DNA from: Verticillium longisporum
Taxonomy: Eukaryota; Ascomycota; Sordariomycetes; Glomerellales; Plectosphaerellaceae
Direction of reading: 5' to 3'
DNA length: 64,000 bases
Assembly (NCBI GenBank): GCA_019188255.1
Contig: JAETXT010000002.1
Span: 3,720,001-3,784,000, forward strand
The translations under genes and the position numbers were made by a program. The notes under the pieces are model-generated. The model made no database searches and was not told the origin of the DNA. It worked only from the letters and a program-made list of their open reading frames with translations. Below, one piece after another: positions 2,545 through 34,097 of the stretch (position 1 is the first letter of the stretch; each line of letters starts with the position of its first letter).

Positions 2545-5098
2545 ATGGTCATGGACGGCGCCGCCATCCTGTCTGCTGCTGCTGCCGCTGGCGGGGCCAC
2601 GCCTGTCAGTCCTACCAGTCCCGTGAGTGCCCGTCCAGGGAACACGCCGATTAGCATTGGCGTTGGACCCAATGGCGTCAAGAGAAAGCGAAACAGCATG
2701 GTCATGAGCAGCCCTGGCAGCCCGGCCGGCCATGACGACGACACCCTCCTCGACGGCGACCCGAAGAAGCGCCAACCTGGCGTCAAGAGAGCGTGTAACG
2801 AGTGCCGCCAGCAGAAGGTGAGTCACCCCCGCCCGCCTTGGCCTCGATCTTCTTGTCCTCGCCCGTCGAGCCAGCCGGCGCATCGTCTGCGACGGCGGTT
2901 TGGGTGACATGAAGTCCCTGGGGAGACCAAATCAGCTTGACCACTTGCTGACCATTGTCTCAGCTCCGGTGCGATGTCGCCCAAGACCCCTTCCAGAGCT
3001 GCTCGCGCTGCAATCGCCTCAAGCTCGACTGCAAGATTGAGTCCAACTTCAAGCGCGTCGGCAAGCGCAGCAAGCACGCCGAGATGGAGAAAGAGATCGA
3101 CACGCTGCGAAGAAAGCTCGGTCGCGCCCAAGCCCAAGGCTTCACCGTCGACGACGACGACCACGACCTCCAGTCCCCCGTCGCCGCATCCGCCGCCTAT
3201 ACACACACCCGCAACCCCTCACTCATGGGCTCCGACGAAGCTGTCTCATCCCTGCTGCACCTCAAGAGGGGCGGCTCTTACAACATGCCACGATATACCC
3301 ACGAGCTGGAGAACGTCCGCTTGACCGAGGACTCGGTCTCTCAGCTCTTCAACATGTTTTTCAACTACTACCACCCATACCTGCCTTTCCTGAACCCTCA
3401 CCAGTCGCCCGACACGTACTACCAGCAGCACTCGCTCCTTTTCTGGACCATTGTCGCCGTCGCTGCGCGTCGCTACAGTGCCGACCCGACCCTGCTGACC
3501 ACCTTGTCGGGCCCATTGACGCGCCTGCTGTGGCAGACCATTGGCGACGTGCCCAGCAGCTACTACGTCGTCAAGGCGCTCTGTTTGTTGTGCACCTGGC
3601 CCCTGCCCACAAGCACGACGACGGCCGATCCTACACACATTCTCTGTGGCGTCATGCTGAGGACCGCCACGGGCATTGGCCTGCACCGCCCGAACCACAC
3701 CCAGGACTTCTCCCGCGTGTCCGTCGACCTGAACAAGGAGCAGCTCCATGACCGCGTCACGACCTGGGCCGTGTGCAACATTGTCGCCCAGTCCATCGGT
3801 ACAGGCTACGGCCAGCCTGCGTCGACACTGTACGACTGGACGCTGGCTGTGAGACGAGGCGAAGATGGTCCCTTTACTCTATCGCCCGTTCTCGAGGCGA
3901 GGCTGCAGATCGAAAGGTTCTGCGACAAGGTGTCCAAAGAGATGTACAGCAACGCCAGCGACTCGCGCGGCGTCGCAGGTGACGAGCACAGAGCCATGCT
4001 GATGCGTGTCTATCGGCGGGATTACGGAGAGCTTCAGGCTTCCATCCTTTCGCAGCATCTTGGGCCCATCGTCAACCTCCATCTCAGGGCCGCAGCTCTT
4101 CATCTCCGATTGGCCGGCTTCTTTGACTCCAACACCACCCCGGGCTACATGGATGATCTGATGGGCCTTTGGCGCGCAACGACGGCCTTCCTAGACCACA
4201 TTCTCGAGGACGACAAGGTGACGTCGCCAGGTCAAAACACGGCTGGCCACATTCTGCTCTACGCCTCGAATTACATCCAGCAGATGCTCGTCGCGGCAGG
4301 ATTTGCCCTCCTCAAGCTGAGCAAATCATTCTTCGCCGAAATCATCGAAGCCGAACGCAGCCGCAGTCTGTTCCACAAGACATTGAACGCCATCCGCGCC
4401 ACCAGCGTCATCAACAATGATTTGCAATCCCGGCTCGCTGAGCTGATGGTGCAGATGTGGAATGGCGCGCGACACGACATCAAGTCTGTCAAGAACGACG
4501 AGGTGTCGCCCCGGCCTGTTGTCGATGACACCCTGCAGCTCAAGGTTCGGTGCCGTCACAGCATGAGTCTCGTGTTCGACTCGGTATGGCGCTGGCGTGA
4601 GGACTATCAAGCCCAGGGCCGCGGCACACTGGACGGTAACTATCCCCCTTGTTCCCCTCCCTTCCTTCCCTGTGCGCTGGCTCGATGCATCCAAGTCTTC
4701 TTTCTGAGTGACTGCGGTGACTGACAACAGGCGCGCGCACAATAGCCCTGAAACAACCTACTAATCCGGACTCAGCGAACGAGTCTTCGGCTTCATCGAC
4801 ACACATGGATTCGACACTGATGCCTGCCGCCGCTGGTGCGCAGAATCTGCCACAGACATCGGGCAACATGCTGGCAGCGACCAATGGTGCCCTCACGCCG
4901 GGTACCACTGCCGCGAGCCTCGCAGCGCCAGCCAGCGCGAACGGCAATGCGGCGGCAAACGGCACCAATAGCAACCTCTTGAGCGGCATCAATTATACGG
5001 ATAACACCAACTACGACTTCTTCGACCCCCAACACTGGATGCTAGACGGCTTGCTAGACTTCAACTACTCATTCGCCCAGCCTCTCGAAGGTGCCTAG
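2545..5098 (+). CDS. Zn2Cys6 fungal-specific transcription factor (Leu3/War1/PrtT-like zinc cluster)
   Basis: Three exons give a 770-aa protein: 2545-2817, 2964-4635 and 4731-5098. Intron 1 (146 nt, GTGAGT..CAG) lies inside the zinc cluster and intron 2 (95 nt, GTAACT..CAG) lies near the C-terminus; both joins keep frame. The cluster is C84-x2-C87-x6-C94-x9-C104-x2-C107-x6-C114. It begins with CNECRQQK and is followed by a basic FKRVGKRSKHAEMEKEI linker and a short heptad-like helix, as in the Leu3/War1/PrtT type. The middle part (about residues 150-500) resembles the fungal-specific regulatory domain, including the FNYYHPYLPFLNP-like motif. The N-terminus is Ala/Ser/Pro-rich with a basic KRKR patch. 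The C-terminal exon is Ala/Asn/Thr-rich and ends in an aromatic/acidic stretch (YDFFDPQHWMLDGLLDF) that looks like an activation region. A nuclear DNA-binding regulator is clear; its target pathway is not. Confidence 0.88.
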
Positions 5099-19300: not shown

Positions 19301-21433
19301 TAGATTAGAGCTTAATTATTAGATATACGATAAAGAATTTATAGTAATTATCGAAGCCTTTAAAAAATAGAGAATATATCTCTCTAGAGTACGATACGAA
19401 ATTAAAGTCTATACTGATTATAGAAATCTTATATATTTTATAATAAATAAAGACCTTAATAAATACTAAATAAGATAAATAGAATTCTTTTCGGAATTTA
19501 ACTTTATTATTATTTATTATAAAAGATTTAAGAATAATAAAATAGATATTCTAAATAAATACTTAAATTATAAATAAAATACGTCCTTTAATATTAATAT
19601 TATCCTAGCGAAAGATAAAGAAGGGAATCTTATCCCTTATTATTAAATACTAATAGTTATTATTTATATAATACTCGCTAGACTATTTACGGAAGTATTA
19701 GAACTAATTCGATAAATCTACGAAGCTAAAGCTTATAGGTACTAAGGAGTAACGAAGACCTTTACTCGATTTAAGAAATATTATAACTTTAAAGGAATTA
19801 GATAAGACGTTATAATAATTATTTATAATTACGACCTCTATAAAAAGAGTAAAATAGAAAAGTATAAGCTTTATAGAGAACTTAAGGCTTTATTAATATT
19901 AATAATAGCTTAGGAGTTAATCTTATTAGATTTTATTATTAGCTTATTATTATTAAAGGAACCCTTAATTAGGACCTCTTATAATAATATCCTAGTAATC
20001 GTAGACCGATTTACTAAATATTTATATTTTCTCCTATATAAAGCTATAAGAATAATAGAAGACCTCGTTTATATATTCCTTAAGAATATTATAGGATAAT
20101 ATAGACTCTTAAAAGAATTAATATTAAATAGAGATAAGCTCTTTATTAATAATTTCTAGAAGTTACTTATTACTTAACTTAGAGCTAAATATAAGCTATC
20201 TACGGCTTTTTATTTATAAATAGATAGATAGATAGAAAGAATAAACTAGATTCTAGAATAATACCTTTAATATTATATTAACTATTAATAAGATAACTAG
20301 GTTATATTACTATTTATCGTATAATTCGTATATAATAGCTTATTAAATAAGTTAATAAAGGAATTACCTTTCTATATTAATTATAAATATAACCTTATAA
20401 TTTATATAGAACGACGCGAAACGCTAGATATATTAAAAGTAATCTATATTATAGATAATATCTATAAGATTTAGGACTAAATTAAGCTTAACCTCGAATT
20501 TATATATACTAGAATAACTACGTATATTAATAAAATAAGGATAAAGGGACTATCTTTATAAGAGGGAGATAGCGTTTACTTTATCCGCTAGAATATAAAA
20601 ATTAAACGATTAAACGATAAACTAGATTTTAAAAAACTAAGACCTTTTAAAATTTTAAGAAACTCTCGGATATTAATTATTACCTCTTATTACTAGAGAA
20701 TATAAAGATTTATTTTATCTTTTATATAGTATTTTTAGAATTAGTATTATTAAATATACTATTTATAATTAATATAGAAGTAGAAGATATAAACGAATAC
20801 GAAATCGAAAGAATTATCGATTATAGAATAAAGGATAATTAGGACGAGTACCTTATTAAGTAGAAGAATTATAATTATAAAGAAAATATATAGGAATTAA
20901 TTAAGAACTTAAACTATTTATAGCTATTAAAGTAGTTTTACTAATACTAGACTCCTCTAGTAACTCCCCTAAACCTAAAGAGGGCTAATCTATATCGGAA
21001 GTTACCCCTATAAATACTAAATTACTCTCTATATAATACTTATAAGTATTAAGAATAGGAAATAAGCTATCCTCCTTATCTAGCTCCTAGATACTTTAAT
21101 GAAACGCTTTATTATTATACTCTTTTACTTTCTTCTTAATTTACTAAATCTACTATAAGCGATTTATAGTATATAATAGATCTTCTTATAATTTAGCTAG
21201 CGCTTCTTCTATAGCTTCTTTATTATCTTCTAATTTCTTTTCGGTTTTTAAAAGACGCTTAATTAAGCTATTATTAGCTACGATAACCTAATTAGTGGAA
21301 AATACGATACTTATAAGAAGATAATACTAAAATACTATTATATTAACGACCTCGCTTTATATACTCCCTATACTATATAGACTTCTCCGATATACGATAT
21401 TTTAAACTTTTCCGGAAATATTAAATATAAGGT
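16366..21433 (+). mobile_element. RIP-destroyed Ty3/gypsy chromovirus (mid-gag to past the end of pol)
   Basis: This 5-kb relic is collinear with the intact element at about 23016-28130. Nearly every CA has become TA and TG has become TA, and many other C/G positions have also changed, while many CG dinucleotides survive. No reading frame remains; most stops fall where the intact copy has CAA, CAG, CGA or TGG. The remnants are traceable in order: gag zinc knuckle near 16590, the Cys/His part of Gag, the -1 frameshift region near 17630, protease, reverse transcriptase (about 18280-18900), RNase H, integrase (about 19700-20300), the chromodomain region (about 20790-20930), and then the antisense gene. 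It differs from the intact copy by more than RIP alone, so it is a related older insertion. Confidence 0.9.
21060..21433 (-). pseudogene. RIPed antisense Zn2Cys6/coiled-coil gene
   Basis: Read on the minus strand from 21432, the sequence keeps the exact zinc-cluster spacing of the intact antisense gene at 27554-28204 (x2, x6, x8, x2, x6). All six cysteine codons are TAY (tyrosine), as expected from G-to-A on the coding strand. Flanking residues are conserved too: CF before the first x6 segment and ECIKRGR in the last. Further along (about 21290-21060), in a shifted frame, a Lys/Glu/Leu-rich coiled coil is readable; its stops sit where glutamine codons are expected. The 5' end is lost at the junction with an inverted LTR at about 21434. 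This is an old copy of the same accessory gene. Confidence 0.8.
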
Positions 21434-21889
21434 TATTACGACCTAGTAGCTTCCGAAGGGGGAATACTATTAGAGGGTTAGGGTTACTATTTATAGAAGC
21501 TTAGGTTATAACTCTAAGATAATATAGTATTATAAGGCGTTATATACTCGTTATAATGAATATAAAGTAAGACTTAGATTAATTACTATTATAAGAAAGA
21601 ATATATCTATAAGTCTAGAATATCTATCCTTATATATTTACTATCTTATCCTTATTATATTAAATAGTAAGCTTATATTAGATAGCTTACTAATTAGTTA
21701 TTAATAATCTATAATATTAAAATTATAGTATATTATCTTATAAATTATTCCCTAGCTTATTATAGCGTCCTTAATAAGCTCGACGATTTACCTTTCATAT
21801 CTAAGTAAGCTATTACGTAATTTACTAAATAAGCCTAATTCTTATTTTATTACGCTCCTTAATTATAGAGTTATTAATTCGTAGCTACC
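21434..21889 (-). repeat. RIPed LTR in inverted orientation
   Basis: The reverse complement matches the 3' LTR at 28305-28780 along nearly its whole length after allowing C-to-T and G-to-A changes, including its U3. About the first 22 bases of that LTR are missing at the 21889 end. The dyad sites of the 13-bp-spacer type are still visible, for example GATTTAC at 21785-21791 and GTAAGCT at 21805-21811 with 13 bases between. Its orientation is opposite to the gag-pol relic beside it, so the two are not a simple element end. Confidence 0.85.
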
Positions 21890-21969
21890 TGTAACGCCCC
21901 AGCCCGGTCGTCACCAGGACACCAGGCAGGACACCCCGCAGGCGATCGGACGCGCCGCACGGACCCACA

Positions 21970-22071
21970 GGATCACTCACGTGACCGTGACCAGATCACG
22001 ATTCTCAAAGTGATCCGGTCACTAACCACACCGTGACCCAAGCAACAGGATCACGACAAGAAAGGTGAGCC
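21970..22071 (+). promoter_or_regulatory. Four inverted GNTCAC pairs, 10-bp spacer
   Basis: Half-sites lie at 21970-21976/21987-21993, 21993-21999/22010-22016, 22016-22022/22033-22039 and 22048-22054/22065-22071. Each pair reads NGNTCAC, ten bases, GTGANCN. All eight cores (TCAC or GTGA) are perfect. The array ends 49 bp before the TATA box. This is a candidate operator or upstream activating array for a dimeric DNA-binding protein. Confidence 0.8.
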
Positions 22072-22119
22072 ATCCAACATGGACTCACCAACCCAACACG
22101 ACAAGGACAGAATGACAGG

Positions 22120-22126
22120 TATATAA
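22120..22126 (+). promoter_or_regulatory. TATA box of the 5' LTR
   Basis: TATATAAGG, conserved in the 3' LTR at 28578-28584 and in the RIPed LTR near 29061. Gag-pol transcription is expected to start shortly downstream. Confidence 0.7.
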
Positions 22127-22324
22127 GGACGGGCATTCGGTACTTGTAGATACATTCTTTCTCACGACAGTGATCAATCTAAGTCTTACCTTGTATCCAT
22201 TGTAACGAGTGCGCAACGCCTTACGACACCACATCGTCTCAGAGTCACAACCTAAGCTTCTGCAAACAGCAACCCTAACCCTCTGACAGTGTTCCCCCTT
22301 CGGAAGCTGCCAGGTCGTAACATT

Positions 22325-22333
22325 TTGATCACT
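22325..22333 (+). other. Candidate self-priming primer-binding site
   Basis: TTGATCACT begins two bases after the 5' LTR. It is the exact reverse complement of AGTGATCAA at 22169-22177, early in the expected transcript. After one mismatch four more bases can pair, one of them as a G-U wobble. There is no match to the usual tRNA-Met type site. Tf1/sushi-group elements prime reverse transcription from their own mRNA 5' end in this way. Confidence 0.55.
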
Positions 22334-22385
22334 CTTGTTCAGTAGGTTTACCTTGTGACACTGAGCAATACTTACCACAGGAACA

Positions 22386-23387
22386 ATGTCCACCAACAGC
22401 GTCGGAAACAGCGCCAGCAACTTGGCCGCTATGATCCAGGAGCTCCGTTCGGAGAACGAACAGCTCCGAGCCTCAATGCAACAACTTCAAGGCGGAACGA
22501 GCATGAAGGCTCTTCCCCCTCAGTCATTCGACGGCAACCCTAGGGCACTTCAGTCTTTCATCACCCAGGTACGCCAGTACCACAAAGCCAATGAGGGCCA
22601 ACTTAAGTACTGGGGCGAGAAGGTCGCCAACGCCTCCTCTTACCTCAAAGGGGACGCCTTGCACTGGTTCGAACCCTTCATTAGGGACTATTCCACCCAC
22701 ACCAAGAAAGAAGATATGAAGCAGGCCACCCAGGACATCTACGCAGGTATGAACGCATTCGAAGAAGCCATTAAAGGAGCGTTTGGGGACGTGGACGAGG
22801 AACGACAAAACGAAAGAAAAATCCTTCAGCTCAAACAGACCGGGCCAGCCACTAAGTACGCCACGGAGTTTCGACTCTTAGCCAGTCGACTCGATTGGAC
22901 AGAGTCCGCTCTCATGGCCCGTTTCTACGAAGGACTCAAAGACGCCGTCAAAGACGACCTCATCCGGGAGGATAGACCCGAAACCCTCACCGAGTACATC
23001 GCCATGGCCGTCAAAATCGACGATCGCCAGTACGAACGCAGAATAGAAAAGGGACGAAAGCCCGCTATAGGACCATGGAACCCTCGCATTCCCCACCACC
23101 GATCCAATCAAGGACGCAAGTACCAGCACGACAAACCCCGCGTCAGCACGGCTTGGGGACAGACCACCCATGCAGGACCCATGGAGCTCGACAATACCAG
23201 ACATGGCAAACCGAAGGATCTCAAGGACATGAAATGCTACAACTGCGGCAAAAACGGGCATATGGCTCGAGAATGCCGGCAACCTAAGAAGCCCTGGAAA
23301 CCCGTAAACGAACGACAGCTCAACCATACTCAACACAGGACCATGCCAAAACTAACTGGACCTTCTGTTACCAGGATGATTGCCTGA
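22386..23387 (+). CDS. gag: Gag, 5' part (capsid and zinc knuckle), truncated by a one-base deletion
   Basis: Frame of 333 aa. Residues about 14-40 form a short coiled coil (MIQELRSENEQLRASMQQL), followed by the retrotransposon gag capsid region with FDGNPRALQSFITQ, WFEPFI and the YATEFRLLASRLDW motif. A zinc knuckle C-x2-C-x4-H-x4-C (CYNCGKNGHMAREC) follows near residues 283-296. Beyond it the frame runs on for about 30 residues unrelated to the family and stops at 23387. The continuing Gag sequence lies in the frame that is open from 23288. The RIPed relative has one extra base at the matching point (about 16687), which would keep both parts in one frame. The visible stop is therefore probably a recent mutation in this copy. 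Confidence 0.88.
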   Translation: MSTNSVGNSASNLAAMIQELRSENEQLRASMQQLQGGTSMKALPPQSFDGNPRALQSFITQVRQYHKANEGQLKYWGEKVANASSYLKGDALHWFEPFIRDYSTHTKKEDMKQATQDIYAGMNAFEEAIKGAFGDVDEERQNERKILQLKQTGPATKYATEFRLLASRLDWTESALMARFYEGLKDAVKDDLIREDRPETLTEYIAMAVKIDDRQYERRIEKGRKPAIGPWNPRIPHHRSNQGRKYQHDKPRVSTAWGQTTHAGPMELDNTRHGKPKDLKDMKCYNCGKNGHMARECRQPKKPWKPVNERQLNHTQHRTMPKLTGPSVTRMIA

Positions 23388-24328
23388 CCCACAAGGACAG
23401 TAAGGAACAGAATGGATGGTTCCCCAGGGCACCTACGGGACAAAGAACCCTGGCCATGATGGTCACCACCAGGAAGGAAAGACGAATTCAGAAATGGGCC
23501 CAGCAAGTAACGCCGGAGACCCAGGAAATCGATACAGACGAAGAAAGGGCTTATGAACAAGCTCACCCGGAACCACAGGCCGCACCCCACGTTGGACTTA
23601 TGAGCAACGAGGAATGGGACGAATACACGCAAGCAAGCCAGAAGGAGGAACCCCCGTTGGGACAACTTCAACTCCACATCCCAACACAGACCTACGCCGT
23701 TAGCAACCCTAGTGAGGATTACGATCCCCTTGTACCGTGGGACGAACTCATCTACTACGGGACCAAGCCATGGAAGGCCAGCGCCCGAAAGCAAGAAAGC
23801 ACGAAAGAAAACGTACGACTCATGGTAGGAGACCATCCAGCACTCCACCACGCCCACGAACAACACTATCAGTTGTTTTGGCCCGAATGTGTCTACGACG
23901 ACTGCGAATATCATTTCAAAGAGAAAGCCGCGCACCGGTTTCTCCCGCGCAACCACTGGACCGAGCCACGAGTAACGGTAGAGTTCGAACAGGAAAGTCG
24001 CAAATGGATCCTACACATGGACGAATACAGTCAAGGTCGGCTCACGTTCCGACCAGACCCCGCTTATCACGACAAATGCTACCAAGACCATGCCAGATGG
24101 GAGGACTGCGATAATGACGCGTGCATAAAGCACTATATGGCCAAGGCCAGAGATTGGAGGCTTCACCGTATGAAACACGTCAAGAAGCCACTCTTCAGGG
24201 TCCATTATAAGGACGACGACAACCTCGACCCAAGCAATCTAAACACAACGTGGCCACCTACCATGCCGCCGCCTTCGGGAAAAGGCAAGCGTCGGTCGGA
24301 CAGGGACAACGACCGACGAAGGAAGTAA
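23288..24328 (+). pseudogene. gag: Gag, 3' part with three C-x4-C-x2-H modules (frame-shifted from the 5' part)
   Basis: This frame is open from 23288; the first ATG is at 23456, which would give 290 aa. The likely ancestral protein is a continuation of the upstream gag frame after about 23336. It contains three copies of a cysteine/histidine module C-x4-C-x2-H at 23366-23392, 23888-23914 and 24107-24133. Each is preceded by an aromatic residue or Trp and followed by a Lys and an FP/WR-type segment. The end is Pro/Lys/Arg-rich and overlaps the pol frame by 79 bases. The -1 frameshift signal lies in the overlap. Role inferred: nucleocapsid or assembly function in the virus-like particle. Confidence 0.75.
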
Positions 24329-27300
24329 GAGCGATCTGCTCAGCCGAACGAACCCACGGCACGAATCACCTCTACGTGAGAGTAAACGTAGGAGGACGAT
24401 GGGCAAGCGCGCTACTAGACAGCGGCGCCCAGGGCAACTACATGAGCCCCGAATACATCAACAAGAATAAGATCACATGGAAATATAAGGAGGAACCCTA
24501 TCAACTCAGCACGGTGGAAGGACAAGCGGTCTCATACGGAGGAGGGATCGTGAACACGGAGACTGCGCCCCTCCAGGTGTTCATCTCTCGCCGTCAAGGT
24601 CACATAACCTTCGACATCACCAACATGGGAGGAAAACAAATCATCCTAGGCATCCCATGGCTCAGACAATGGAACCCTCAGATTGACTGGACAGCTGGCC
24701 GCGTCCAGTGGAGTACGTCAGCCCCTGAGGAAAGACCCACGAGCGGTCTCTCAAGCGACCTCCAACTAGCCCTCACGAATAGGGACAACTCAGAGGAGAC
24801 AACCCCGGAGGAGCTCACAACAGAACAGCAAGAAAGACTGCAGAACGTACCCAAGGAATACTGGAAGTACGAAAAGATCTTCAGGGAAGAAGTCGACACG
24901 GTGCTACCTAAGCACACACACTACGACCACGAAATCCCAATCAAGGAAGGGGAGAGCCCCCGATTCAACAAGATCTACGGATTGAACCCTCGACAGATGG
25001 ATACTCTCGACGAGTATCTCAAGGAGAACCTCAGAAAAGGATACATCCGACCATCGACATCCCCAGCAGGATACCCGATTCTCTTTGTGCCAAAGAAGAA
25101 TGGCAAGGAAAGACTATGCGTCGACTACAGACAGTTGAACGACATTACCATCAAGAACTGCTACCCATTGCCTCTGATATCAGAACTCAGGGACGCATTA
25201 GCAGGAGCCAATTGGTTCACAGCGCTCGATCTCAAAGGAGCATATAACCTCATCCGCATCAAGGATGGAGAGGAATGGAAAACGGCATTCCGAACACGAC
25301 GAGGACACTACGAGTACTTGGTCATGCCATTCGGATTGACCAACGCTCCCGCAACCTTCCAAAACATGATCAACGATGTACTGCGAGAATTCCTGGACGT
25401 CTTCGTGGTGGTATATCTCGATGACATTCTGATCTTCTCGAAGACAATGGAAGAACACAAGGGACACGTCCACCAGGTCCTCACACGACTACACCAGCAC
25501 GAGCTGTTAGTGGAGCCTGAAAAAGCCAAGTTCCACACACAGGAAGTAGATTTCCTAGGGTATACGATCACCCCAGGAGAAATCAGGATGGAAAAATCCA
25601 AAGTGGCAGCCATCAGGGAATGGCCTACACCAAAGAACGTCAAGGACGTCAGAGCATTCCTCGGTTTCGTCAACTTCTACCGACGATTCCTAAAAGGATA
25701 CAGCAAGACTGCCAATCCTTTGACGAGCCTCACGGTCAAGGAAATAGAGTTCGCATGGAACGAACCCCAAGAAAAGGCATTTCGCCAAATTATCGATGCC
25801 GTCCTCAGCGAACCAGTCCTCCGGATGATAGACCCCGAAAAACCCATGGAAGTCGAGACAGATGCCTCCGACTTCGCCATTGGAGGACAGTTAGGCCAGA
25901 GGGACGACCAAGGACGATTGCACCCAGTAGCATTCTTCTCGAAAAAGCTACACGGACCAGAGCTCAACTATCAGATACACGACAAAGAACTCATGGCAAT
26001 CATCGAAGCCTTCAAAGAATGGAGAACGTATCTCTCCGGAGCACGACACGAAGTCAAGGTCTACACTGACCACAAGAATCTTGCACACTTCACAACGAAC
26101 AAAGACCTCAACAAACGACAGATTAGATGGGCGGAATTCCTCTCGGAATTCAACTTCACCATCATCTACCGCAAAGGATCTGAGAATGGCAGGGCAGATA
26201 TCTTGAGCAGACGCTCAGACCACGAACAAACCACACCCCCAAACAATAACGCAATCCTCGCAAGCGACAAAGAAGGAAATCTAATCCCGTACCACCGTAC
26301 CTTGGCGGTCACCACACGAATAAAACCCGCCAAGCCACCCAAGAGCACCACAGAGCTCATCGAACAAGTCCACGGGGCCAAGGCCCACGGACACCAAGGA
26401 GTAGCGAAAACATTCGCCCGACTCAGAAAACATCACGACTTCAAAGGAACCAGACAGGACGTCACAGCAGTGATCCGCAACTGCAACCTCTGCAAGAAAA
26501 GCAAGGCAGAGAGACACAGGCCCTATGGAGAACTCAAAGCACTACCAGTACCAACCGCAGCCTGGGAGTCAGTCTCACTGGACTTCATCACCAGCCTGCC
26601 ACCATCGAAGGAACCCTTAACTGGGACCTCTTACGACAACATCCTAGTAGTCGTCGACCGACTCACCAAGTACTCCTACTTTCTCCCGTATAAAGCCACA
26701 GGAACGGCAGAAGACCTCGCCTATGTGTTCCTCAGGAACATTGTGGGACAACACGGACTCCCAAAAGAACTGGTGTCAGATAGAGACAAGCTCTTCACCA
26801 GCAACTTCTGGAAGTCACTCATCGCTCAACTTGGAGCCAAACATAAGCTATCCACGGCTTTTCACCCGCAGACAGACGGACAGACAGAAAGAACGAACCA
26901 GACTCTAGAGCAGTACCTTCGGTGTTATATCAACTACCAACAAGATGACTGGGTCACATTACTACCCATCGCACAGTTCGCATACAACAGCTCACCAAGC
27001 GAGTCAACAAAGGAATCACCCTTCTATGCCAACTACGGGTACAACCCAACAGCCTACGCGGAACGCCGCGAAGCACCGGACACGCCAAAAGCGACCAACA
27101 TTGCGGTCAACATCCGCAAGATCCAGGAACAAATCAAGCTCGACCTCGAGCTCGTACGCACCAGAATGACCACGTACGCCAACAAGACAAGGATGAAGGG
27201 ACCATCCTTACAGGAGGGAGATAGCGTCTACCTCATCCGCCGAAACATCAAAACCAAACGACCAAACGACAAATTGGATTTCAAGAAACTAGGACCATTT

Positions 27301-27666
27301 AAAATTCTCAAGAAACTCTCGGATACCAACTACCACCTCTCATTACCAGAGAACATGAAGATTCACCCCGTTTTTCACATTGCACTACTAGAGCCAGCAC
27401 CACATAACGCACCACTCGAAACAAACGTGGAAGTCGAAAATACCAACGAGTATGATGTCGAAAGAATCCTCGATCACAGAAAGATAAGCAAACAAGAAGA
27501 ATACTTGATCAAATGGAAGAACTATGGGCATGAAGAAAACACATGGGAACCAGTCAAGAACCTGAACTGCCCGCAGTTGCTCCAAGAATATCATCGCCTG
27601 GCACAGGACCAAGGTCGGAAAATTCCTCCCCGAAGCCCAACGAGGACCAGTCCACGACGCCGCTAG
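24250..27666 (+). CDS. pol: Pol polyprotein: protease, reverse transcriptase, RNase H, integrase, chromodomain
   Basis: Uninterrupted frame of 1138 aa from the first ATG, although it is probably translated by frameshift at 24277. Domains with approximate residues: aspartic protease with LLDSGAQ (55-61); reverse transcriptase with the catalytic YLDD near 386-389; RNase H with ETDASDFAIGG near 537; integrase H2-C2 zinc finger (about 712-755, HGHQG, CNLC); DDE core with LDFITSLP, VSDRD and HPQTDGQTERTNQTLEQ (about 775-900); and a C-terminal chromodomain (about 1068-1115) with YDVERILDHR, YLIKWKNY and TWEP. Catalytic residues visible to me are intact. The chromodomain is expected to steer insertion to methylated-histone heterochromatin, consistent with its location in RIPed DNA. 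The last 113 bases overlap the antisense gene tail to tail. Confidence 0.96.
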   Translation: MATYHAAAFGKRQASVGQGQRPTKEVRAICSAERTHGTNHLYVRVNVGGRWASALLDSGAQGNYMSPEYINKNKITWKYKEEPYQLSTVEGQAVSYGGGIVNTETAPLQVFISRRQGHITFDITNMGGKQIILGIPWLRQWNPQIDWTAGRVQWSTSAPEERPTSGLSSDLQLALTNRDNSEETTPEELTTEQQERLQNVPKEYWKYEKIFREEVDTVLPKHTHYDHEIPIKEGESPRFNKIYGLNPRQMDTLDEYLKENLRKGYIRPSTSPAGYPILFVPKKNGKERLCVDYRQLNDITIKNCYPLPLISELRDALAGANWFTALDLKGAYNLIRIKDGEEWKTAFRTRRGHYEYLVMPFGLTNAPATFQNMINDVLREFLDVFVVVYLDDILIFSKTMEEHKGHVHQVLTRLHQHELLVEPEKAKFHTQEVDFLGYTITPGEIRMEKSKVAAIREWPTPKNVKDVRAFLGFVNFYRRFLKGYSKTANPLTSLTVKEIEFAWNEPQEKAFRQIIDAVLSEPVLRMIDPEKPMEVETDASDFAIGGQLGQRDDQGRLHPVAFFSKKLHGPELNYQIHDKELMAIIEAFKEWRTYLSGARHEVKVYTDHKNLAHFTTNKDLNKRQIRWAEFLSEFNFTIIYRKGSENGRADILSRRSDHEQTTPPNNNAILASDKEGNLIPYHRTLAVTTRIKPAKPPKSTTELIEQVHGAKAHGHQGVAKTFARLRKHHDFKGTRQDVTAVIRNCNLCKKSKAERHRPYGELKALPVPTAAWESVSLDFITSLPPSKEPLTGTSYDNILVVVDRLTKYSYFLPYKATGTAEDLAYVFLRNIVGQHGLPKELVSDRDKLFTSNFWKSLIAQLGAKHKLSTAFHPQTDGQTERTNQTLEQYLRCYINYQQDDWVTLLPIAQFAYNSSPSESTKESPFYANYGYNPTAYAERREAPDTPKATNIAVNIRKIQEQIKLDLELVRTRMTTYANKTRMKGPSLQEGDSVYLIRRNIKTKRPNDKLDFKKLGPFKILKKLSDTNYHLSLPENMKIHPVFHIALLEPAPHNAPLETNVEVENTNEYDVERILDHRKISKQEEYLIKWKNYGHEENTWEPVKNLNCPQLLQEYHRLAQDQGRKIPPRSPTRTSPRRR
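24277..24318 (+). promoter_or_regulatory. Programmed -1 ribosomal frameshift signal (gag to pol)
   Basis: The slippery heptamer G GGA AAA at 24277-24283 is in the gag frame. A six-base spacer (24284-24289) follows, then a perfect nine-base-pair GC-rich stem: CGTCGGTCG at 24290-24298 and CGACCGACG at 24310-24318, with an 11-base loop. Slipping back one base enters the pol frame. GGAAAAGG and the length of the region are preserved in the RIPed relative. The arrangement is the standard one for retroviral-type -1 frameshifting. Confidence 0.82.
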
Positions 27667-28204
27667 CACCCCACTCCTGAAGGTCCTGCACCACGTTGGC
27701 CTCCTGAGCCTCGAGGCTTAGGTTGTCCCCGCCCAGAGGAAGGACGCCGTCCTCCTCATCCAACTGACGAATCCCACGAGCAAACAACTCTTCCCCACGA
27801 GCCTTCGCCGCCTTCCGCATCTTGCGAAGACGGGACAAACGACCCAAGGCCGTCGCCAACTTCGTTTGGAGCACCTCCAACTCCATTTCAGCATCCTCAA
27901 TCTCAGCTTCTCGCTTCTTCTGCTCTGCAAGAGCCTTTTCCACTAGACGATCATTAGAAAACAGGACCATGACCCCACCAGGGACCAACTTACGCGCAGA
28001 AACCACGCTCACACCATCACAAGAGCGACCGCGACGGATGCACTCCCCACAGCGAGAAGAACCAGGGGCGGTCTTACAGACGAGATGTCGCTTGAAGCAC
28101 CCCGTACAAGGCATCTTGATTTCGCCCTCGGAGTCAATCAAAGCAGCGAGCGCCTTTCTTTGGTCGGTTTTGGCAGACGAACGTTTTATGACACGACCTG
28201 ACAT
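27554..28204 (-). CDS. Antisense Zn2Cys6 plus coiled-coil protein carried by the retrotransposon
   Basis: Frame of 216 aa on the strand opposite gag-pol, between pol and the polypurine tract. Residues 1-30 are basic. Cysteines 33, 36, 43, 52, 55 and 62 give C-x2-C-x6-C-x8-C-x2-C-x6-C, the spacing of a fungal binuclear zinc cluster. A linker (63-85) leads into a strong coiled coil (about 86-136, rich in Glu, Lys, Leu and Arg), then an acidic Gly/Ser/Leu-rich tail. Layout is therefore DNA-binding domain, linker, dimerisation helix and possible activation region. Met31 is an alternative start. The RIPed relative at 21060-21433 carries a homologous gene with identical cluster spacing, which argues for real coding function rather than a chance frame. 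Its upstream region is the 3' LTR, whose dyad array lies about 200-325 bases before the start. Function inferred: transcriptional regulator of the element. Confidence 0.78.
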   Translation of the reverse strand: MSGRVIKRSSAKTDQRKALAALIDSEGEIKMPCTGCFKRHLVCKTAPGSSRCGECIRRGRSCDGVSVVSARKLVPGGVMVLFSNDRLVEKALAEQKKREAEIEDAEMELEVLQTKLATALGRLSRLRKMRKAAKARGEELFARGIRQLDEEDGVLPLGGDNLSLEAQEANVVQDLQEWGASGVVDWSSLGFGEEFSDLGPVPGDDILGATAGSSGS

Positions 28205-28289
28205 TTTGTCATGGTTAGTAAGGATGACAAGAGAAGAACCACCGCAGGCGGCTGGGACTTACTACTTATGGCCGCTGGGACATCGGCCT

Positions 28290-28299
28290 GGAGGAGGAG
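28290..28299 (+). other. Polypurine tract
   Basis: GGAGGAGGAG followed by five bases and the 3' LTR. The RIPed relative retains AAAGGAGGAG at the same place before its LTR (about 28796-28805). Expected plus-strand primer. Confidence 0.7.
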
Positions 28300-28304
28300 C
28301 ATCA

Positions 28305-28780
28305 TGTAACAACCAAGGAAGCAGGGCGGCCGCGAATCGACGACCCCGCGATCAGGGAACGCGATAAGATAAGAATCGGGCCCACCTGGCAAATCACGTG
28401 ATGGCTCACTCAGACATAAAGGGTGAGTCGTCGGGCTCACCAAGGACGCCGCAGTGAGCCAGGGAATGGCTCACGGGATAACACACCGTGATCCTAACAT
28501 CATGGATCACCAACAACTAACCAGTGAGCCATCCAACATGAGCTCACCACCTAACACAACAAGGACAGGATGGCAGGTATATAAGGACGGACATTCTGGA
28601 CTTGTAGATACATTCTTTCTCACGACAGTGATCAATCTAAGTCTTACCTTGTATTCATTGTAACGAGTGCGCAACGCCTTACGACACCACATCGTCTCAG
28701 AGTCACAACCTAAGCTTCTGCAAACAGCAACCCCAACCCTCTGACAGTGTTCCCCCTTCGGAAGCTGCCAGGTCGTAACA
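28305..28780 (+). repeat. 3' LTR (476 bp)
   Basis: It begins TGTAAC and ends GTAACA. R-U5 is nearly identical to the 5' LTR, but the first 200 bases or so are different and 43 bases longer overall. It contains four dyad sites, TATATAA at 28578-28584, and the AGTGATCAA motif that would prime reverse transcription. Its U3 is the type found in the inverted RIPed LTR at 21434-21889. Confidence 0.92.
28403..28530 (-). promoter_or_regulatory. Four inverted GNTCAC pairs, 13-bp spacer
   Basis: Half-sites lie at 28403-28409/28423-28429, 28434-28440/28454-28460, 28468-28474/28488-28494 and 28504-28510/28524-28530. Each pair reads GGNTCAC, thirteen bases, GTGANYC. Every TCAC/GTGA core is perfect. The array ends 48 bp before the TATA box, the same distance as in the 5' LTR. 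Facing left, it also lies in the probable promoter of the antisense gene. Confidence 0.8.
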
Positions 28781-29264
28781 TTAGGATATCGGCCTAAAGG
28801 AGGAGTATTATATAACGAGTATAGGTCGAATAACCGGCTATAGATAAACCCTATATTAGAAGATCTAGGGTTATTAATAAGATAAGGCTTATTAAGGCTA
28901 GGTTATATAATAAGATTACTAGGAAATAGTAATCTAGGATTAAGGATTACTATTTTATTTAGATTATTATAAGCCGTAATCTAATATAAGAGGATTACGA
29001 TATAATAGTAAGCTATTTAATATAAGCTTACTACTTAATATAATAAGGATAGGATAGTAGGTATATAAGGACGGATATTCTAGACTTATAGATATATTCC
29101 TTCTTACGATAGTAATTAATCTAAGTCTTACTTTATATCTATTATAATGAGTACGTAACGCCTTACGATACTATATCGTCTTAGAGTTATAACCTAAGCT
29201 TCTATAAATAGTAACCCTAACCCTCTAATAGTATTCCCCCTTCGGAAGCTGCTAGGTCGTAATA
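28781..29264 (+). repeat. RIPed polypurine tract and LTR of a third element
   Basis: 28781-28810 is the RIPed equivalent of the bases just before the 3' LTR, including the polypurine tract. From 28811 (TATAAC, from TGTAAC) to 29264 follows a full RIPed LTR whose R-U5 matches both other LTRs but whose U3 matches neither. At least three dyads with 8-9 bp spacers remain: 28913-28919/28929-28935, 28961-28967/28976-28982 and 28992-28998/29008-29014. It abuts the intact 3' LTR directly. Confidence 0.82.
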
Positions 29265-29597
29265 TAAGCTTATATAAAAGTCTTAAAATACTTAAAAATA
29301 AATTAGTATTCTTATAATTACTTATAAAGTATAATCGATAAGCTTATATATAGTAAATATATTATTTATAGGATCGATCTTAATTTCTCTAGCTCTAGCT
29401 ATTCTATATTATATTAAACGTAATATTAATTAATATTAAAAGGGCTTTATTATTTATATAAACCTTAATCTAGTACTTCCGCTATACTTACGAGCTCTAG
29501 ATAGGTAGGGTATCTAATAAGTCTTATAATAGTTAATTCTTATATAATTATCTGCTTCTCTAAGTTACTACTACCTACGTGAGTTAGATATACCTAT
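29265..29597. other. AT-rich, RIP-like sequence of unknown origin
   Basis: About 330 bases of TA-rich DNA continue the RIPed island to the right. I find no clear match to the chromovirus body or LTR. Confidence 0.55.
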
Positions 29598-30735: not shown

Positions 30736-33700
30736 ATGCCGTCGACATTGGCCCTCCTCAGCTGTCTCTTACTGTCCCTGACATGGCCAGCAAGAGTCAA
30801 GTCAATGGGTGCGGCCCGCCTGGCGGAGCTCCGGAAATCAACGGTTGAGGTCTTCCAGCATGGCTTCAACAACTACATGCAGCACGCTTTCCCGGAGGAC
30901 GAGGTTCGAGCCCCACCATCTTTAATCTTCCCCTCGCATGGCCTGGGCTAAACTCTTCCTCGCAGCTACGGCCCGTCTCATGTACGCCTCTTTCCCGCGA
31001 TCCGGCGAACCCAGGGGATTACGACCTGAACGACGTCCTCGGCAACTACTCCCTTACCCTTCTCGACAGCTTGTCGACCCTCGCCATCCTCGCCGGCACG
31101 CCCTCCGACGACCAGACGGCAGAATGGGCTCTCAAAGAGTTCCAGGGCGGGGTAGAAAAGTTTGTGCACTACTACGGGGACGGACGGCGTGGCCCATCGG
31201 GCCAGGGTATACGTGCGCGCGGGTTCGACCTCGACAGCAAGGTCCAGGTCTTTGAGACCGTCATCCGAGGGGTGGGCGGCCTTCTGAGCGCCCACCTCTT
31301 CGCCGTCGGGGAGCTCCCCATACCTGGCTATGATCCAGAGCATGCAGGGCTGAACGACGACGACGACGACGACTCGGATCCGCTGGAGCTGGCCCCCATC
31401 CCGTGGCCGAGCGGCTTCCACTACGACGGCCAGCTCCTGCGACTGGCCCTCGACATGGCAGAACGGCTGCTGCCGGCCTTTTATACGACGACTGGTCTGC
31501 CATATCCGCGTGTCAATCTGCGCCATGGCATTCCCTTTTACATCAACTCACCCCTGCATAAGGTTTCGCCCAACGACCCTGACTCGACGCAGAAGTACCC
31601 TGAGAAGACGGACACGTGTGCGGCGGGCGCCGGCAGCTTGGTGCTCGAGTTTACCGTCCTCAGCCGCCTCACCGGCGACCAGAGGTTCGAGCATCTAGCC
31701 AAACGCGCCTTCTGGGCTGTCTGGAAGGGCAAAAGCGAAATCGGCCTGGTCGGCAACGCCATCCACCCCGAAAGGGGAGACTGGGTCAACTTTGACACGG
31801 GCATCGGCGCTGGCGTCGACAGCTTCTTTGAGTATGCTTTGAAGAGTCACATTCTGCTGTCCGGCCACGACCTTCCCAATGTCACCGCGCGCGCGCCGAC
31901 GACGTCAGACCGTCAGTGGCTCGACCCGAATACGTTGCACACCGAACCTTTGACTCCCGAGGAACACACCGCGGGAGCCTTTCTCGAGGCCTGGCATCAG
32001 GCGCATGCGGCTATCAAACGCCACTTGTACAACGACGCTCACCACCCGTACTACATGACAGGTCACAGGACCAGGGGCTACCCTTTCACGGCCTGGATCG
32101 ACAGTCTGGCGGCATTCTATCCCGGCCTGCTGGCCATGGCTGGCGAGGTTGCGGAGGGTGAGGAGGCGAACCTTCTCTATACTGCACTCTGGACTCGCTA
32201 TGGTGCCCTGCCAGAGAGATGGTCGGTTCGAGAGAGGCAGGTCGACTCTGGAATCGGCTGGTGGCCCGGGCGACCCGAGTTTATCGAGTCGACATACTAT
32301 CTGTATCGTGCCACCGGCGACCCGTGGTACCTGCACGTTGGCGAGATGGTCCTTGCGGATATCAATCGTCTCTGCCGGACCAAGTGCGGCTGGTCGGGGC
32401 TCCAAAATGTCGACACGGGCGAAAAGGCAGATCGGATGCAGAGCTTCTTCTTGGGTGAAACCACGAAGTATCTTTATGTCCTTTTCGATCCTGAACACCC
32501 GCTTAACAAACTCGATGCCGCTTTCGTCTTCAGCACCGAAGCCCATCCGCTCATCATTCCGGGGCAGCGAGCTTCGAGGCGCGGTCAGAAAACAAGAAAG
32601 AAGAAGAAACCGCAGGTGAACCGTCTCGTGAAGGGCGTCAAGGCGTACCACGATGAGCATTACACCAACACTTGCCCGGTTGCCTCGAGGCCTCCATTGA
32701 CGGGCTCGGCCATGGCCGCACGCGCCGACGTGTTCCAAGCCGCCAGCTTCGTCAACCTGCATACGGTCGCCAACCCTCACAGTGGCATGAAGCTAGTCCC
32801 AACCTTCAAGGGGTCCAACGAGACTGTTCTCCGATACAAGGAGAACCACACCTTCTTCCCCTGGACGCTGCCTACTTCGATGGTCCCGGACAACGGCACC
32901 TGCGCGGCTCTCACGTTCAAGCCAACCCTTGTCATCGAGTTTCCCTCGACAAACCAACAGGGCAGTGCGCTGAACCAGCTGTTTGCGAATACGGCAGCAT
33001 TCAAGACCCTTTATGGCGCCAAGATCACCTCGCTGAACGGCTTGAAGATTACTTTTATCAAGGAGGAGTCCTTTGCGCCGAACTACGACCACACCTGGCG
33101 CGTCACGCACGTCAATCACATAGCTCTCGGCAAGGATGAGATCGTACACATCGATGGCGACATGCTCTCCGACATCAAAGACCCCCTCTTCAATCGTGTT
33201 CGCTACACGCCGTACGTCGACCTCATGATTATCTACGGAGAACCTCCCTCGGAGAACACCACAGCAGAGACCCCACTCGAAACGGTCGAAGTGGCGCTCG
33301 ACGAGCACGGCAACGAGATACACCTGAGCGAGGAGGCGTCCTCGTGGCTGGAACACGACGCCGAGGCACCGGACTCGCTCGACCCCTCCTACGGCTCCAT
33401 GCTCAAGAGCCTCGTCCGCGCAGTCACCTCCGTCTTCGACCCGGCCAACACGCCCTCGCCCGACGACGGCCCCGCGGGCGCCAGCCGGCGCACGCTGCAC
33501 ATGGAAACCTACAAAGCCGCCCTGCCCGTCGGCATCGGCGCCGTGCCCCTCCCCGACGTCCGCGACGCGCCCCTGGCCCCGGCCACGGCGCCGGACGAGA
33601 ACACGCCCGCCGCCCAGCTCCACCTGCCCTGGCACACCGTCTACCTCGCCGGCCAGGGCTGCACCGCCCGCCTCCCGGACGCCATCCCGCGCAACCACCA

Positions 33701-34097
33701 CGTCATCGCCCTGCGCCGCGGCGGCTGCTCCTTCAGCGCCAAGCTCGCCAACATTCCCGCCGTCACGCCCACGGCGCACTCGCTCCGCCTCGTCGTCGTC
33801 GTCAGCCACCCGCACGAGGACGGCCCCGGCGACGACGTCGACGACGACGACGCCGTCTACGGCGGTCACGTCGATCGCCCGCCCTGGGACGCCGCCCACG
33901 ACATTGTCAAGCCGCACCTCGAGGACGAGCAGCGCACACCTGGCGGCATGCCGCGCCACCGCCCGCTCAGCCTGGTCATGATCCGCGGCGGCCAGACGGC
34001 GTGGGAGCAGCTCGGGCGCGCGAGGGGCGTCGGCGTCCGGAGAAAGTATGTCATTGAGACCCAGGGCCGGCGGGTGGACAACATCATCGTGCTCTGA
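30736..34097 (+). CDS. EDEM-like glycoside hydrolase family 47 mannosidase with PA domain
   Basis: Two exons, 30736-30903 and 30966-34097, joined in phase by a 62-nt intron (GTTCGA..CAG), give 1099 aa. The join restores the family motif FPEDELRP. The N-terminus is a signal peptide (about 1-22). The GH47 fold spans about residues 30-580, with YSLTLLDSLSTLAIL (near 83), CAAGAGSLVLEF (near 273), RPEFIESTYYLYRATGD (near 493) and the family-end motif FSTEAHPL (near 578). An RGGCSFSAKL segment near residue 920 marks a protease-associated domain, as in the EDEM3 branch. There is no HDEL-type retention signal at the end. The known role of the family is trimming mannose from misfolded glycoproteins in the ER so that they are recognised for degradation. 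The last 250 residues are very GC-rich and Asp/Ala-rich. It is convergent with the APRT gene. Confidence 0.93.

Follow-up and report, generated by a model that had tools for sequence, protein, structure and literature searches.

An antisense gene and a spaced U3 array form a candidate regulatory cassette in a recombinant chromovirus of Verticillium longisporum

The Boty-like chromovirus of Botrytis cinerea carries an antisense gene, brtn (Zhao et al. 2011, Virology 417:248; via PMC8365987, PMC7264820, PMC4227169, PMC5987419), and the plant elements Retand, Grande and RIRE2 possess antisense open reading frames (ORFs) between pol and the 3' long terminal repeat (LTR), that of Retand containing a TRP28 domain and being proposed to encode a DNA-binding regulator (PMC11963269, PMC7264820). 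The accessible text of one of these sources gives the role of antisense genes located between pol and the 3' LTR as unknown (PMC7264820). Sequence-specific proteins encoded by transposable elements (TEs) are exemplified by VANC of the Arabidopsis VANDAL elements, for which binding to arrays of motifs in the element's own non-coding DNA has been shown (PMC5735166, PMC10398659), while in human T-cell leukaemia virus type 1 (HTLV-1) the antisense protein HBZ, whose transcript starts in the 3' LTR, regulates the 5' LTR (PMC3185765). Among fungal regulators, zinc-cluster homodimers read paired half-sites with the assistance of a coiled coil (PMC5559640). Here we describe an element at positions 21890-28780 of a 64,000-nucleotide stretch of the Verticillium longisporum genome (assembly GCA_019188255.1, contig JAETXT010000002.1, positions 3,720,001 to 3,784,000; hereafter the window), which has gag and pol on the forward strand and an antisense gene on the reverse strand. 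The order of its pol domains (protease-like region, reverse transcriptase (RT), RNase H, integrase, chromodomain) is that of a Ty3/gypsy chromovirus, and its LTRs, gag, pol and antisense ORF lie where a first-pass annotation, made by a model from the letters alone, had placed them (Table 1).

Our preferred interpretation, to which we assign a probability of about two-thirds, is that the antisense gene and the unique 3' region (U3) of the adjacent LTR constitute a single regulatory cassette, the gene encoding a dimeric regulator of its own U3. The candidate target is an array of everted pairs, TCAC-Nk-GTGA, with four pairs of k=10 in the 5' LTR and four of k=13 in the 3' LTR, in agreement with the earlier observation that the spacer is constant within an LTR and different between LTRs. 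Half-sites number 12 in the 5' LTR and 11 in the 3' LTR, compared to 3.6 and 2.8 in shuffled sequences; when their number is fixed and their placement randomised, four equal gaps are rare (P = 0.001 and 0.0012, respectively), and dinucleotide shuffling of each U3, 20,000 times, never produced them. The distance from the array to the TATATAA box, taken from the end of the last GTGANCC, is close to that first reported (Table 1). A scan of the 72-Mb, 16-contig genome for double pairs with spacers of k=9 to 13 recovered 158 matches per strand for k=10 and 140 for k=13 (0 and 1 for a reversed-pattern control), against 1, 0 and 1 for k=9, 11 and 12 (controls 1, 0 and 0). Many of these matches are copies of the same LTRs, so that the counts indicate specificity rather than independent events, and among the matches listed all except C4:2598578 show array letters of the A or B type.

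N10 is found in all four units of family A and of A2 (one half-site with a mismatch), and N13 in all four units of family B and of B2 (likewise with one mismatched half-site); in B1 one unit departs from N13 (12, 13, 13, 13). A2 and B2, which are apparently solo LTRs, and the element A3, which resembles a product of repeat-induced point mutation (RIP), have diverged in the letters of their spacers and have kept N10 or N13. Three units per end of A3 satisfy the rule of our script, the flank requirement of which omits a unit from the A3 list, and the list for B2 contains an additional overlapping unit due to chance. An antisense gene of A type (74% nucleotide identity) is present in A3 as well. 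Gaps between units are variable (10, 13 and 15 in B; 8, 14 and 13 in B2), while gaps within units are fixed. Furthermore, half-site cores vary less than the rest of the array, with P values of 0.005 and 0.001 for B/B1 and of 0.001 and 0.055 for D/E, each pair of values depending on which family member is used to mark the sites. We also considered an inverted reading, GTGA...TCAC, yet its gaps are not constant (4, 10, 13, 15 and 16 in B; 5, 5, 11, 14 and 16 in A), and the everted reading was therefore kept. Separately, the U3s of B (28305-28577), B1, D and E hold GATAAGATAAG, a double GATA-factor-like site that we did not see in A by eye.

The antisense gene is under strong purifying selection at the protein level, as the first-pass annotation had anticipated for this frame. 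Outside the overlap with pol, synonymous (dS) and non-synonymous (dN) divergence are 0.366 and 0.014 between B and B1, and 1.407 and 0.065 between D and E, giving dN/dS ratios (omega) of 0.037 and 0.046. Over the whole gene, substitutions at the first, second and third codon positions number 3/6/41 for B/B1 and 23/10/73 for D/E, and in both pairs the exons are free of insertions and deletions, which are confined to the intron. The window ORF (216 aa, 28204-27554) reads across a 51-nt stretch bearing the marks of a fungal intron, and introns are predicted at one shared place in families A, B, B1, D and E and in gene F, a relative outside the element (72, 51, 49, 62, 52 and 72 nt, respectively), all in phase 1 except that of A, which is in phase 0. 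Those of B1, D, E and gene F link the zinc-cluster frame to the coiled-coil frame. Intron ends were picked by consensus signals and frame rather than from RNA, and B and F have alternative acceptors that also maintain an open frame. We set aside the possibility that the gene of family A is simply broken: with the 72-nt intron applied, one copy is open to the normal end and in a second the frame continues beyond it.

Gene F (C4:226800-229000) stands alone, has 46-48% identity to the antisense proteins of B and B1, and shares the place of their predicted intron; its neighbour is presumably BTB-like. When the 3.7 kb fetched around gene F was compared with LTR, gag and pol, scores were marginal, at 1 to 4 over the best of 15 shuffles. 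Gene F is possibly the source of the antisense gene, or else a domesticated copy of it. No relative was recovered when IMG/VR was scanned with the antisense alignment or with RT.

Related families within this one genome carry different versions of the gene and promoter on backbones that are in part nearly identical. R-U5, the remainder of the LTR after U3, is 97-99.5% identical among A, B, B1, D and E, and RT fragments compared as protein to that of the window element are 99-100% identical in open copies of these five families and 93-98% in frame-split ones. The gag-side 1.4 kb of the window element is A-like (99-100% to six A-type loci) and matches three of five B copies equally well at the nucleotide level (99-100%), the other two containing a diverged block in which identity falls to 74-75%. 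Between B1 and D, 1233 bp of pol show 99.76% identity. Synonymous divergence in blocks of pol spans 0 to 0.72 depending on the pair and the block, being 0.007-0.05 for B1/D, 0 and 0.038 followed by 0.28-0.38 for A/B, and 0-0.135 over codons 100-900 followed by 0.306 for B/E, where B denotes in all pol comparisons the pol of the recombinant window copy. Antisense proteins of different classes, by contrast, are approximately 41-51% identical, with dS above 1 or saturated. From these near-identical backbone parts combined with very different gene-plus-U3 units, regulator and promoter appear to form a single cassette that can be exchanged. With 40 LTR candidates scored, the class of the antisense gene equals that of the adjacent 3' LTR in 11 of 11 A, 11 of 11 B and 3 of 3 B1 copies (25/25, all from this genome; the A copies exclude the fragment C11:2994640 and RIP-like A relatives at C9:6357k and C13:3926k), and the expected co-occurrence of gene and own-class U3 is thus upheld. 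Among RIP-like B-type loci, drawn from 30 fetched loci in which L023-L025 are B1 copies, classes match in 13 of 16, the other three (L028, L030, L036) lacking their own 3' LTR within the fetched sequence.

A restriction of the antisense gene to A-E-type families in this genome is doubtful, given that a more distant family X (RT 58-59% identical) also has reverse-strand frames after pol, in several pieces, that are cysteine-rich and coil-like. The LTR of family X (C11:5411300-5414500) is 214 bp long and contains the palindrome CAACAGG-N6-CCTGTTG; no TCAC/GTGA array was found in it by eye (L071).

The copy in the window is itself a recombinant of two families, a point that the first-pass annotation overlooked: its 5' LTR and gag are A-like, while the 3' end of pol, the antisense gene and the 3' LTR belong to B, which is why its two LTRs differ. 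The 5' LTR matches six other A-type 5' LTRs letter for letter over the 432 bases compared. Over the last 1490 bp before the antisense stop, the window copy differs from ten other B copies at 0 to 9 sites; over the 577 bases comprising the upstream region of the gene and the LTR, eight of these ten are not letter-identical to the window copy, a separate comparison giving 99-100% identity. The window copy has no target-site duplication, whereas among pure B copies the LTR pairs are identical in six of six and an exact 5-bp duplication is present in four of six. One pure A copy and one D copy likewise have no duplication, so that its absence alone does not mark a recombinant. The family fits the matching LTRs and short target-site duplication expected of a Ty3/gypsy insertion, from which the recombinant window copy departs. 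Among 22 A- or B-type copies, at least 6 pair an antisense gene of one class with a 5' LTR of another, in 5' LTR/gene combinations of A/B (the window copy and C1:3080279), B/A (C7:1397k, C2:2410k, C1:3061k) and E/A (C1:7147k). Target-site duplication is absent from all five of these six mixed copies for which flanks were compared. Ectopic recombination is the simplest origin of such copies. C2:2410k and C1:3061k have the same flanks on both sides, which suggests segmental duplication.

The product of the antisense gene resembles a zinc-cluster protein by its sequence pattern and is a putative member of that family. The Zn2Cys6 consensus is CX2CX6CX5-12CX2CX6-8C, and the cysteine spacing of the antisense protein (Table 1) conforms to it. 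Six proteins compared share without exception the six cysteines, a CDG motif, residues of the coil and, towards the C terminus, a tryptophan and a glycine. A single-sequence structural model of the unspliced ORF as a monomer contains one helix at residues 78-150, with a predicted local distance difference test score (pLDDT) above 90 in mid-helix. Comparison of the window ORF to PDB entries gave weak matches to Put3 (E 0.27 and 0.36).

Several observations weigh against the proposed regulator and its target. The Pfam gathering score for Zn_clus is not reached by any of the six members, three of which match it at E values up to 10 (best 0.1), and the window ORF has no Zn_clus match; other weak Pfam matches, mostly to coiled-coil types, equal or outscore it. 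In PDB profile comparisons the best match is eIF2-beta (E 0.0097, in the helix region), ahead of the zinc-cluster proteins Put3 (0.54, with a second match at 0.73), Cep3 (0.8) and Lac9 (6.4), coil-like entries matching or exceeding the zinc clusters in score, and the single-sequence model is poor outside the long helix. The TCAC/GTGA half-site differs from the CGG usual for the zinc-cluster family. In the intact D and E LTRs the spacers are irregular (8, 18 and 9), and the test for equal gaps is not passed (P = 0.97 and 0.96; the 5' and 3' LTRs of E were taken from two different copies), so that the initial description of four evenly built pairs in each LTR holds for A- and B-type LTRs and is untrue for the D/E class. 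Nor do the lengths of spacer and linker change together, as had been proposed: linker length does not follow spacer length, the linkers of B (N13) and D (N8-9) being equal, and that of A (N10) is five residues shorter given the acceptor chosen, on which its length hinges. Additionally, gene and U3 lie side by side at the RNA's 3' end, so that linkage would lead one to expect their class match, which demonstrates a unit rather than binding. Finally, the mixed copies described above separate 5' LTR from gene class; in the window copy the N10 5' LTR comes from A and the gene from B, making control of its own 5' LTR by its own protein the least certain case. Taken as a whole, the original interpretation is partly supported.

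Under the cassette interpretation, transcription of the antisense gene would probably come from the side of the 3' LTR, and a single splicing step would yield a small, dimeric, zinc-cluster-like protein that may bind the everted TCAC/GTGA pairs of U3s of its own class. In a new copy, it is the 3' end of the RNA that supplies the U3 of each LTR. Because reverse transcription copies U3 to both ends, one array could work at the 5' LTR for the sense promoter and at the 3' LTR for the antisense gene. We favour activation over repression at about 60:40, given the location of the array, 48 bp or more ahead of TATA, and an acidic, tryptophan-containing C-terminal motif. The cassette forms the 3' end of the genomic RNA, and so a single template switch or crossover in pol could replace regulator and promoter together; such a joint swap would explain similar gag-pol regions with very different cassettes. 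More tentatively, and with rather less confidence than we would place in an even chance, the antisense zinc-cluster-like protein and its spacing-specific array (N10, N13 or N8-9) may travel by single template switches as a 3'-end cassette onto a shared gag-pol backbone, forming private circuits akin to heteroimmunity by which related elements within one nucleus are regulated separately. The candidate arrays, the protein-level selection and a natural experiment, in which large shared backbone parts are joined to three cassette classes in one genome, render the function of the antisense gene testable with small pieces of DNA. If correct, the model would show how retrotransposons could hold and swap private promoters.

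The same cassette could alternatively encode a repressor, exerting copy-number control with heteroimmunity-like independence of the classes; this is the minority sign within our preferred interpretation rather than an addition to it, and we regard it as rather unlikely. In heteroimmune phages, similar backbones coexist with different regulatory cassettes, and the coexistence here of similar backbones with very different cassettes would fit such a role, yet the position of the array upstream of TATA and the C-terminal DWxxLG motif both appear activator-like, and many A and B copies are identical and recent, such that any repression has failed to stop either class. A host factor, for example a basic helix-loop-helix (bHLH) protein, might instead bind the pairs, with the antisense protein working elsewhere, in RNA or particle handling, integration or the control of host genes. 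This we consider unlikely. The match of gene and U3 class is explicable by linkage alone, one TCACGTGA is present in the U3s of A, B, B2, D and E (with GCACGTGA in B1 and A2), and the antisense protein is just distantly zinc-cluster-like; however, a single host factor would need to accommodate two exact spacings, each kept separately per lineage, and the near-confinement of the listed double-pair matches to A- and B-type letters also argues against it. It is very improbable that the antisense transcript rather than the protein acts, as double-stranded RNA against gag-pol, for although the gene and the end of pol overlap on opposite strands, the omega of the gene outside the overlap is low and its codon structure is intact. 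Equally remote is equal spacing as a by-product of tandem duplication of one unit: half-sites of one kind do repeat, but by eye the spacers within one LTR are unrelated in letters and fixed only in length, and the gaps between units differ.

Features of the element are collected in Table 1. A Pfam scan of the ORF between gag and pol gave no match. The flanks of the element are AT-rich and hold RIP-like copies of related LTRs, namely a B-type LTR upstream (minus strand, 21398-21866) and an E-type LTR downstream (plus strand, 28806-29300), the latter AT-rich at about 28810-29060, with a spacer of 9 in its first and last pairs as read from the letters. Elsewhere in the window, ORFs at 31071-34097 and 2955-4724 contain glycosyl hydrolase family 47 and Fungal_trans domains, respectively.

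Table 1 Features of the chromovirus at 21890-28780, in window positions
Feature	Position	Strand	Remarks
5' LTR	21890..22322	+	Family A type, 433 bp, TG...CA
Everted pair 1, TCAC-N10-GTGA	21973..21990		5' LTR
Everted pair 2, TCAC-N10-GTGA	21996..22013		5' LTR
Everted pair 3, TCAC-N10-GTGA	22019..22036		5' LTR
Everted pair 4, TCAC-N10-GTGA	22051..22068		5' LTR
TATATAA box, 5' LTR	22120..22126	+	48 bases past last GTGANCC
gag ORF	22386..23387	+	Retrotrans_gag, zinc knuckle
290-aa ORF between gag and pol	23456..24328	+	Cys/His-rich middle
pol ORF	24250..27666	+	Protease-like region, RT, RNase H, integrase, chromodomain
Antisense gene, predicted exon 2	27554..27942	-	Coiled coil, C-terminal DWSSLGFGEE motif; last part overlaps pol end
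Antisense gene, predicted intron	27943..27993	-	51 nt, GTAAGT...TAG
Antisense gene, predicted exon 1	27994..28204	-	Zinc-cluster-like CX2CX6CX8CX2CX6C
Purine-rich tract, probable plus-strand primer	28290..28304	+	Adjoins 3' LTR start; read from letters
3' LTR	28305..28780	+	Family B type, 476 bp
Everted pair 1, TCAC-N13-GTGA	28406..28426		3' LTR
Everted pair 2, TCAC-N13-GTGA	28437..28457		3' LTR
Everted pair 3, TCAC-N13-GTGA	28471..28491		3' LTR
Everted pair 4, TCAC-N13-GTGA	28507..28527		3' LTR
TATATAA box, 3' LTR	28578..28584	+	47 bases past last GTGANCC

With reference to described systems, both antisense genes in fungal chromoviruses and TE-encoded motif-binding proteins are already known, while their combination with LTR arrays is apparently unreported: literature listings by title and start of abstract, in which subscription journals are thinly covered, include among the matches listed no self-encoded zinc-cluster regulator with LTR target arrays. 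The first-pass statement that no such retrotransposon has been described consequently applies to the combination, the antisense gene itself having a precedent in brtn. Boty is likewise a fungal chromodomain Ty3/gypsy element with an extra antisense gene between pol and the 3' LTR; the accessible accounts of brtn mention neither a zinc cluster nor LTR binding sites nor cassette exchange. Zn2Cys6 activators of the Gal4/Put3 type share with the antisense protein the cysteine spacing, a helix following the zinc module for dimerisation and the use of paired half-sites (PMC5559640, accessible part), from which the antisense protein differs in its TCAC/GTGA rather than CGG half-sites, its small size and its score below the Pfam threshold. 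Retand belongs to a non-chromovirus lineage, and its antisense ORF has an unrelated domain and, in the accessible accounts, no described target sites. HBZ is a basic leucine zipper (bZIP) protein of an unrelated human virus that acts via CREB and p300/CBP, with no self-encoded array of spaced sites shown in the portion of the source available, whereas the window element is a chromovirus with a six-cysteine motif. In lambdoid phages, immunity regions comprising a regulator and its operators are swapped as a block between otherwise similar genomes; the analogy is one of organisation alone, with no kinship and no immunity shown in the window element. VANDAL elements are Mutator-like DNA transposons, and thus differ from the LTR element described here, as they do, according to the accessible parts of the VANC papers, in the anti-silencing function of VANC and in having motifs in one orientation, but they resemble it in joining a TE-encoded regulator to the element's own motif arrays, which diverge between related families.

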